Below are positions 47,601 to 52,239 of a DNA stretch of 64,000 nt, piece after piece. The translations under genes and the position numbers were made by a program. Below the pieces are notes generated by a model that worked only from the letters and a program-made list of their open reading frames with translations, searched no databases and had not been told where the DNA came from. How positions within the stretch are numbered: position 1 is the first letter of the stretch; each line of letters opens with the position of its first letter. Origin of the DNA: Manis javanica (lineage: Eukaryota > Chordata > Mammalia > Pholidota > Manidae); NCBI RefSeq assembly GCF_040802235.1, contig NC_133164.1:111184302-111248301 (forward strand), in the 5' to 3' direction.

Positions 47601-50600
47601 CAGGCCTTCTGGGCCGTCCTCTGCGCGCAGGGCACTGTGACCCCCTGCTCCAGCAGGCAGGCGGCCCTGTGAGGAAGAGTCCAGGCTCTGCAGCCAGCCC
47701 TCCCAATCCTGCCAGGCATTCTGTGATCGTGGGTTCCTTAAGCCTCAGTTTCCTTACCTATAAAACAGGGATAACAGTAACAGCTATTTCAAGGCGCTTT
47801 TATGAAGATTAAACTGTTGGATGATGCATTAAGCGCAGTGCCCGACACACGGTAAAAGCTCTTCCCGCTCTTCTGCTTCTTTTAATTGCTCGTTCTTACG
47901 ATCGGGTACCTCGCAGGCATTGTGACCGACGCTACTCTCTTCCTACAGTTTATGCTCAATGAATAACTGTAGAACTAGAACAAATCAGACCATCCTATCA
48001 CCTGGCCGACCAAGATAATACGGCAGAGGGTGGCGAAATATTTCTGGTTGACTAGATAACATTTTGGCTTTTCAGGCCTTTGTTGCAACTATTCAACTCT
48101 GTTTGTTGTAGGGCAAGAACAGGCCATAGATAATACTTAAGTGAATGAGTATGGCTGTGTTCCAATAAAACTTTATTTATAAAAATAGTCAGTGGGCCAC
48201 ATTCGGCCCACAGGCCATAGGTTGTTGACTCTTGACTTAGAGCAACAAATAGGAGGAAACAACACTCTTTTCAATTGCAGCTTCTACTCATTAGTTAGCA
48301 TATTTGTTTAGAAATTCAAGTCTCTTTTAATACCTGTGATGGTTAATTTTGTGTGTCAACTTGGCCAGGCCACAGTACCCAGATATTTGGTCAATATTAT
48401 TCTAGATGTTCCTGGGAGATATTTTTTAGACAAGATGAACATTTAAGTGGGTAGACTCTGAGTAAAGTAGAATATCCTCCATAAAGTCGGTGGGCCCAAC
48501 AATCAGTTGAAGGCCTTACTAAAAAAAAGACCTTCCTGGATGAAGAGGGGATTCAGGCAGGAGATAACCTTTGGACTCAAACTGTAACTCTCTCCTGGAG
48601 GATTTTGGGTTTGCCAGCCTTAACAATCTTGTCCACCAGTTCCTTAAAATGATTCTCTTTCTCTGGGTCTCTGGAGAATCCAACCGAATACACCATCTTT
48701 TTGGAAATTCTACACTTCTACTTTGCATTCTTGGATAATGGAAACCTTTATGACTACAGATCTCTTTAGTCAAAAACTAACAAACACTGACTCATTTCCA
48801 CAGAATCAAACAAATCAAGTTTAAAAAGTGTTCCAGTGAAAGTGACAGAGCAGAGGGTCAGTTATGGCAAAGCAACATTCAGAGCTTGAGACAACTTCCT
48901 GGAAATACTCAGTTCTAGGTCACATTAATCATGAGGCTGCAGCCTGACTTTAGGATGAGGGAGGGGAGTTTTGGGCCTAGATGTTTGAAACCACATTATC
49001 TAACATTTAAAGAAACTCAAAGTATGTGGTATTCAGGTAATGTATTTTTAATTAGGTTGGGCAAGGTCTTTAGCTGGCACCTTAAACTGATTGCCCTGAA
49101 TGTAATTCTCTTTCAGTATCTGTCAAATTGAAATATAAAGGACACAGCTGACTGATAAAAGTTGGCTTATAAGAGAATGCGATTATTTTGACCTCTTGGC
49201 TTTTCCACCACGTTCTAACCAAGAGAATTGGCTGGGAGGGAAAAATTTTGCCTGAGAAAGACCCAAGCCCACATAAAACCATTACGTGTGAAGTGATTTC
49301 CTAACAACCTTCCTGAAGCAGTCTCCTCAGAGATCACAGCTATGGTTTAAGAGTCTCATGCTCTACCGACTGAGCTAGCAGGGCGACCACTCACAGCTAT
49401 GGTTTAATAAAACTTCTCCCATCCTTCTGCCAAAGAGAGCAATAAACAGGAGCGATTCATTTACATCTAACTGACAAATGGCTCCTTTGAGATAATGCGA
49501 CATGAATTAGCTTGGCTGGGCTCCAGGTCCTCTACAGAGACCTGGCTTCTTGGGCAACAGTGAAGAAAACTCTCTCATGTTACCCACCCACCTCTCGCCA
49601 GCCCTGGGCAAACACACCTCATCTCTTCAAACAGTTCGCAGTGTCTTCTGCGTCAGTGCTGGAACTGTCTGCTTCTCTCTTCCTCCTACTTATCCAAGTG
49701 CGGGGCAGCCTTCCTTGATAACCTAGCTCAAGGATCCCCTCCTCCTTGAGAGCATGTCTGCCCACCCTGGTCCCCTGTGATCTGTGCTTTCCCGAACGCT
49801 TGCTGTGCCGAATGCCTCTCCTGCACATACTGCAGTTACTAGCAATCACAATGGCAGCAAGAACATAGCCATCATTTACCAAGCACTTAATAAGAGTCAG
49901 CCTTATTACGGTAGTTTTAAGAACATTGCCACAGGTAAAAACCAATAACTGAAAAGAATTGTATTTTTAACCTAACATATTACACTTGTGTTTTGTTTTT
50001 TACATGTAGGAAAAAGTGCTGCAAAGGTTATAAATTTGTTTTACATGTAGCAATGTTCTTAAAACCACCATGAGTCAAGCACCAATCCTTCCCTGCAAAA
50101 ACTGAGGTTTAGCAAGTAAGTTGCTCAAGGTCATAGGTAGCAGGATGTGTTCTATGAGCTGAATGTTTGTGTCCTGAAATTCGTATTTGAAAATCTAACC
50201 CCCAGTGTGATGGTATTAGGAGGTGGGGCATTTGGGAGATGATCAGATCATGAGAGTACAGTCCCCATGAATGGGATCACTGTTAATAAATTGAGACCCC
50301 AGAGAGCTCCCTCACCTTCTCTGCTATGCAAGGACATGTAAGACAATGGCTGCCTAGGAACCAGGAAACCCTCATGAAATACCGAATTTTCCAGCGCCTT
50401 GGTCTGGGACTTCTCAGCCTGCAGAACTATGAGAAATAAATGTGTGTTGTTTAAGCCACCCAGTCTAAGGCTTTTTGTTACAGCAGTCCAAATGGACTAA
50501 GATGATGTGGAAGCATGATTAAAATCCAGGTCTCTGATTCTGTGATGTCTGCATCCTGTCTCCCAGTTTGATGGTGTGATGCGAGTCTTGGGAGCTGGGC

Positions 50601-51056: not shown

Positions 51057-52239
51057 CTAAGAAACAAAGAAACAAAACACAAGTGTAATATGTTAGGTTA
51101 AAAATACAATTCTTTTCAGTTATTGGTTTTGAATGAAATAACTTATGCCCAGGAAAAACCAAGACATAGAGGAAAGTAGGGGTGCAGTAATTTTAAAAGA
51201 ATCTGAGATAAAAAGGAAGTATCAATACCACATGACATCTTCCAATGTGCCCTTTTGCCACATTAACCCTTTGAATTCTATGAAATGAATTAACACAGAG
51301 GCTTCAAGATGCTTATGTTAGATGATTAGAGGTCTGCAGGATATAAGTATGAAAAGGACCTTTTAGGCTGGCCAGACCCCTTACCCTATAGGCCAAGGAT
51401 TCACATGGCTTGCTAATTATAACAATTATCTAAGAGTAATAACAACTGGGCAAGTATAACATAATGATGTTAATTCTAATATAATAACAAGTAAGGCAGT
51501 TTATTACTATCCAGACTGGGATTGGGACCCACCCATTCTGGCTCCCATTCCAATGCTTCTTTTATACCTACACCATGTAAGGTACTCAAAGGGACCTAGA
51601 TTATCTGAATTTTAAAAACAGCAAACAGGAAATTCTTAACATAAATACCCAAGCCTTGTATATTTGCCTGAGGTAGGGAAATGGTACCACTGTTCAAAAA
51701 TGTAAATCTCCACTGGAAAGAGTACGTCTCTAGTATGGAGTTGTAAACTCTTAACAGATCACCCCCCTGCAGATACAACTATAAGTTACAGACAAAATGG
51801 AAGCAAACAACTACTACGAAGGTTCTGTAGAGTAAATGAAAACTGGCAGGTTTAGGAGGGGAGCTGAAATTTTGAACAAGGGATATATATTTGAACCTTT
51901 GAATAAGGGTAAGGTTCCTGCTTTTTAAGGCTTTGGCCTGAGCTCCGACCACAGTTGCCATGCAGTGTGGGAACCTAAAACTCAGAGAAAATCTGCAGTA
52001 TTTTTTTGCCAGATGAAACAGAGGACAAAGCCTAGGCAATCAGAGTCAAGAGAAACTGAGGAGGAATTCTGTGAGTCCCAAATACATTTCACCAAGTCTC
52101 TGGTAAACCCTAACCCAAGACTGTGAGGAACAGACCTGAAACACCCCAACTAAAAACAACAGGGGCTGGACAAGGGTTTGAGCCACTGGCTCCTGCACGC
52201 CAGTTTTTGTCATCAAACCAAGTTACTTGCCTGCTAACA

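Follow-up and report, generated by a model that had tools for sequence, protein, structure and literature searches.

Exon–intron editing duplexes of the GRIA2 type bring an acceptor or exon into pairing with an intronic inverted copy. Inverted duplications themselves are frequent: among 733 human inversions outside mobile-element insertions, they are described as the commonest class (277, with a median of 284 bp; PMC12350158). The annotation of duplications there took in 2 kb around each breakpoint, and the majority of the inverted ones carried 1–15 bp of microhomology, which is taken in that report as a sign of replicative origin (PMC12350158). At shorter range, template-switch events in apes are described as enriched in introns, with a small rise in the stability of the ancestral structure at the first switch point and a longest gold-standard inserted fragment of 128 (PMC7954356), and template switches have been proposed to make RNA stems in one step (PMC8794818). 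Here we describe an inverted copy of the start of CCBE1 exon 3, together with its acceptor, within the intron that follows, and we compare it with these systems.

The window, the whole 64-kb stretch of DNA that we analysed, holds CCBE1 exons 3–11, with AG before all nine exons and GT after the first eight; joined, these exons read through 323 codons without a break, and the product matches CCBE1 from many vertebrates. Exon 3 occupies 51,056–51,004 on the minus strand and, at 53 bp, would shift the frame if skipped, just as originally predicted. A 103-base stretch of intron 3 (49,938–50,040, plus strand) is the reverse complement of 51,026–51,130 in two perfect blocks; on the minus strand, this source runs from the last part of intron 2 into exon 3, of which it takes in the first 31 bases. 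The features of the copy and its source are as follows.

51,004–51,056, minus strand: CCBE1 exon 3, 53 bp, placed by exon joining and by protein relatives
51,057–51,059, minus strand: exon 3 acceptor TAG, the probable microhomology of one template switch, read by eye
51,070–51,130, minus strand: source block A, the end of intron 2, 61 bp, with branch-point-like TTAAC (A at 51,098) and CTAAC (A at 51,093)
49,938–49,998, plus strand: copy of block A, reverse complement of 51,070–51,130, 61/61
51,060–51,069, minus strand: source side of the internal loop, where the pyrimidine tract ends in 10 nt (CUUUGUUUCU) that have no complement in the copy
51,026–51,059, minus strand: source block B, acceptor TAG and first 31 exon bases, 34 bp
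50,007–50,040, plus strand: copy of block B, reverse complement of 51,026–51,059, 34/34

The coordinates given for both blocks in the original prediction proved exact, with all 61 and all 34 pairs present, and sequence comparison bore out the 8/10-base internal loop and the hairpin loop of about 985 nt that it had described. Between the blocks, the unmatched middle measures 10 nt in the source (51,060–51,069) against 8 nt in the copy (49,999–50,006), and a single gapped alignment of copy and source gives 98 identities in 105 columns. The hairpin loop between source and copy is 985 nt, with the starts of the arms about 1.1 kb apart.

In these respects the locus resembles the human inverted-duplication insertions described in PMC12350158, as a short inverted copy close to its source with mostly microhomology joints; the copy derives, in reverse complement, from a unique stretch that lies less than about 2 kb away. 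Unlike the insertions in that description, the donor spans a splice acceptor and the start of an exon about 1 kb off, the copy consists of two blocks around a target-like 12-mer, and the genome is not human. With the short-range template-switch mutations of PMC7954356 and PMC8794818 it shares reverse-complement copying, an intronic, hairpin-prone target and perfect stems from what appears to be one event, whereas its reach of about 1 kb and its more than one pair of switches set it apart from them, the scans as described in those two reports searching tens to hundreds of nucleotides and modelling a single event. An event with several template visits and a donor some 1 kb off is beyond the range of the short-range scan described in PMC7954356, and the 985-nt loop makes the product a long-range duplex rather than a compact hairpin. 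As in GRIA2-type duplexes and in the acceptor-AG editing described for LUSTR1 exon 15a (PMC526178), an acceptor and exon would pair with an intronic inverted copy; unlike LUSTR1 exon 15a, the arms here come from a unique exon, not from Alu elements, and the pairing is predicted from the sequence. Judged by its anatomy, the copy is a member of the known class of inverted-duplication insertions, one that reaches further, involves more switches and takes an exon boundary as its donor. Among the papers listed by a literature search for an exon copied in inverse near itself, and for CCBE1 intron 3 or exon 3, none reports such a case to judge by title and opening of the abstract. The locus offers a clean natural case: 61 + 34 pairs are perfect, the donor is unique and the exon would shift the frame if lost.

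If bases are taken as independent, 64 kb of sequence should contain 8e-28 perfect pairs of 61-mers and 1e-11 of 34-mers. For the exon 3 acceptor region, the longest perfect complement lying within 2 kb measures 61, compared with 9–13 at the eight other CCBE1 acceptor regions in the window and 8–13 for 60 random 106-bp windows. These expected counts, together with the acceptor and random-window controls (at most 13 pairs), rule out chance pairing. Comparison of the 64 kb with itself (E <= 1e-6) returned seven matches, four inverted and three direct, and the copy of CCBE1 exon 3 is the sole inverted self-match above 90% identity. An inverted SINE pair was rejected because the arms match just each other among these seven matches and one of them holds a coding exon. 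We also dropped a reading as a known structured RNA, since an Rfam search at gathering thresholds gave 0 matches in the window.

Self-recurring repeats are scarce in the window for a mammal, with seven self-matches (E 1e-6) in 64 kb and a single A/T run of at least 12. One inverted pair (57,046–57,179 and 63,385–63,516; 135 columns, 77% identity) is probably an old dispersed repeat. Three stretches of 55–71 bp (10,035–10,104, 17,930–17,990 and 50,396–50,466) match one another at 80–82% and probably represent one dispersed repeat family; the third, 50,396–50,466, sits inside the hairpin loop of the exon 3 duplex.

The site that received the copy has a structure of its own, which comprises the following features.

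49,865–50,149, minus strand: MIR-like element, broken by the copy (by comparison with a MIR consensus)
49,910–49,940, plus strand: left arm of a quasi-palindrome, 31 nt, 90% complementary to 50,039–50,069
50,039–50,069, plus strand: right arm of the quasi-palindrome, 31 nt; the arms, joined, fold as a DNA hairpin
49,998–50,009, plus strand: target-like 12-mer TTTTACATGTAG between the copied blocks, found by sequence comparison
50,039–50,050, plus strand: further occurrence of TTTTACATGTAG, within the target's right flank and falling on the MIR-like alignment

With 49,941–50,040 removed, the MIR-like sequence scores 191 against the consensus, compared with a mean of 74 and a maximum of 159 for 200 single-base shuffles, and MIR-like sequence is present on both flanks of the copy by the same consensus (scores of 104 on the left and 126 on the right). 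The flanks constitute a 31-base inverted repeat, complementary at 28/31 positions, with the insertion at its centre, and the joined target arms are predicted to form a DNA hairpin of -20.3 kcal/mol (z -8.4), which none of 200 shuffles equalled. The alignment of the left arm with the MIR consensus is weak, and part of the quasi-palindrome may therefore have been produced by the event instead of causing it.

The window contains two instances of the 12-mer TTTTACATGTAG, one at 49,998 and the other 41 bases on at 50,039, and none of its reverse complement. Twelve 12-mers recur at a spacing of 12–45 bp in the window; two tandem arrays account for eleven of them, and TTTTACATGTAG is the one that remains. 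The 8 unmatched bases of the copy fall inside it, and decay of a once-continuous copy was rejected as the origin of the 8/10 gap because the gap sits in this target-like 12-mer. Because TTTTACATGTAG recurs in the right flank, synthesis most simply returned to the target between blocks A and B, and its two occurrences place target sequence inside the insert, as several template visits would. Read by eye, the joints show microhomologies of TAG (3) and TT (2), which lie in the 1–15 bp range, as do AAAA (4) and a T run, these last two being conditional on the left arm being ancestral. If TAG was the microhomology of one switch, it would account for block B starting exactly at the splice site, with no appeal to function.

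Taken with the hairpin-forming, MIR-like target, this anatomy favours a mutational origin by serial template switching over a purpose-built editing partner. We consider it likely that the intron 3 copy arose when a DNA polymerase, working at a site prone to form a hairpin, changed template several times, leaving a sequence predicted to pair with the exon 3 acceptor in the pre-mRNA. The templates appear to have been visited in the order target–donor–target–donor–target by way of short microhomologies. A hairpin in the MIR-like element would first have stalled the nascent strand, which would then have used AAAA to anneal, some 1 kb off, to the complementary strand, where block A was copied. A T run would have taken the strand back to the target, with copying on to TACATGTAG; a second jump, through TAG, would have led to the exon 3 acceptor, where block B was copied; and TT would have returned the strand so that replication resumed.

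Two points in the template-switch literature count against a hairpin-site account: the regions flanking the switch point are described as less stable than background (PMC7954356), and spatially more distant copying, as treated in PMC8794818, would create no hairpins. A very similar scar would be expected from a break repaired by end-joining with templated synthesis.

From the sequence we infer the empty site, the copying direction and the age of the event. Mismatches number 0 in 95 copied positions and 3 in 31 arm positions (Fisher p 0.014), the 0/95 being partly by construction in that the blocks are delimited by the first mismatch; because of this difference the data suggest, on small counts, a recent insertion into an older palindrome. 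The 95% upper bound on the age is about 8, 18 or 36 Myr at assumed rates of 2.2e-9, 1e-9 or 0.5e-9 changes per site per year, respectively, with 168 effective sites estimated and the blocks delimited by the first mismatch.

The leading alternative, which we regard as unlikely, is a functional editing or splicing hairpin, in which the copy has been retained since it directs ADAR to exon 3 or tunes its inclusion, much as editing complementary sequences act at known recoding sites. It can draw on the perfect exon–intron duplex across the acceptor and 31 exon bases, on the 12 exonic adenosines in block B, 9 of which would recode upon A-to-G change (3 would be silent), and on the acceptor A, which lies within a UAG triplet. 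This triplet is a favoured ADAR context. Precedents are found in LUSTR1, where the intron 15 acceptor A is reported as 22% edited in brain (PMC526178), and in a collection of 492 splice-site editing sites, 385 of which are described as lying in the 3′ splice site and changing AG to GG (PMC5991522). The sequence anatomy, however, is that of a mutational scar, a recent origin would by itself leave the arms identical, and the editing of Alu pairs described in PMC526178 peaks at 300–400 nt between element starts and drops with distance, whereas the starts here are about 1.1 kb apart.

Also unlikely, and ranked behind a functional hairpin, is an RNA-templated or end-joining patch, that is, a class 2 templated sequence insertion in which CCBE1 sequence, either reverse-transcribed or resected locally, filled a double-strand break in the MIR-like element before the ends were joined. 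The microhomology joints are compatible with it; PMC5110952 describes class 2 insertions as showing microhomology but no target-site duplication and counts intronic fragments among the templates of such insertions, and foldback and inverted templated insertions at yeast breaks are described in PMC11724301. A patch would nevertheless demand a mid-insertion return to the target, given the 12-mer TTTTACATGTAG between the blocks, and serial template switching explains more simply why a single donor, some 1 kb off, supplied both blocks.

An assembly or library artefact in the form of a foldback chimera is very unlikely. Inverted chimeras are a known artefact of amplified libraries, which counts in its favour, but a foldback artefact is expected to show one junction and a long palindrome, whereas this site has four joints and a target-like 12-mer, and MIR-like sequence flanks it on either side. 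Least probable of all is a LINE-1-mediated (class 1) insertion of a CCBE1 RNA fragment, with TTTTACATGTAG as target-site duplication and TTTT/A as the nick, which we rejected because the perfect 12-bp direct repeat, starting TTTTA, flanks block B alone, leaving block A outside instead of enclosing the whole insert, and because the copy carries no poly-A tract (the window's sole A/T run of at least 12 is at 21,350).

For the transcribed copy, we turned to equilibrium fold predictions of an isolated 1,251-nt stretch of pre-mRNA. Folding the minus-strand RNA, a check suggested with the original prediction, gave a structure with both blocks paired and a minimum free energy of -406.8 kcal/mol, compared with -311.0 when the copy was held unpaired (a cost of about 96 kcal/mol) and -315.3 when it was removed; in silico, the duplex between the exon and its intronic complement is thus stable. 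The predicted pairing probability of the acceptor AG is 1.00 with the copy and 0.29 with the copy removed. The remainder of exon 3 (0.61 vs 0.65) and the donor region (0.54 vs 0.55) are hardly altered by the copy in the same folds.

The original prediction had placed the pyrimidine tract inside the duplex and the 3′ splice site in a buried state, and each of these statements holds in part. The stretch of the tract further upstream is paired within block A, but its last 10 nt, CUUUGUUUCU, form the internal loop; likewise, the acceptor AG is predicted to be paired (1.00 vs 0.29), but the last 10 bases of the tract stay mostly open, with a pairing probability of 0.36 with the copy and 0.51 without it. 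This less paired internal loop argues against full burial of the splice site.

On these predictions, a 61 + 34 bp RNA duplex would compete with recognition of the 3′ splice site and would be a plausible ADAR substrate. As a proposal on what the copy does, not on how it arose, the original prediction is a fair hypothesis. Some editing inside the duplex could equally well occur or fail to occur, and a measurable shift in exon 3 inclusion is rather unlikely. In the cell, splicing factors that bind before the copy is transcribed may pre-empt the duplex. The effect of the copy on the RNA is likely to be mild, given that some 1 kb separates transcription of the acceptor from that of the copy and that exons 3–11 still form an open CCBE1 frame. 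More far-reaching, and doubtful, is the proposal that one replication error gave the acceptor of a constitutive exon a perfect RNA partner and the lineage a new ADAR- or structure-sensitive switch, in which editing or masking of the AG would make the frame-shifting exon 3 skippable and so set CCBE1 dose. If an effect on the RNA is real, a copying scar would have created an editing or splicing switch; since the donor is an exon boundary, this scar could act on RNA.

The protein encoded by the joined exons 3–11 has 387 relatives at E <= 1e-30, 120 of them listed. Among the matches listed, the highest full-length one is from kangaroo rat (700 bits, 90%), followed by those of tarsier, snub-nosed monkey and manatee. 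Over the 129 non-collagen residues, finless porpoise is the best among the listed proteins that cover the stretch (116/129), with pilot whale, desman and arctic fox at 115 each among the matches listed; relative to chimpanzee CCBE1, 19 of the 129 compared residues differ. The two rankings disagree, and the source may be a placental mammal, possibly laurasiatherian. Exons 1 and 2 were not found in the window with the human protein, covering part of exon 2, as the query. Viral contigs scanned for the pattern of the acceptor and exon 3 gave 0 matches.

Several further observations concern the gene as it stands in this window. The acceptor region of exon 4 is directly duplicated (46,399–46,532 and 47,509–47,642; 134 bp, 80.6% identity), the duplicate lying 1,110 bp upstream in the same intron 3; with TG in place of its AG, this upstream duplicate resembles an acceptor that has died. 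The final CCBE1 exon (23,436–23,630) stops at DDYPKKY-stop, about 13 residues before many of the mammalian proteins compared, and the DNA past this point resembles the missing tail in a different frame, which makes a lineage-specific frameshift or a base error likely. Several predicted CCBE1 proteins (P0005, P0008, P0036 and P0039, cetacean) start just ahead of exon 3, a hint of an alternative start or of a model error at that exon.
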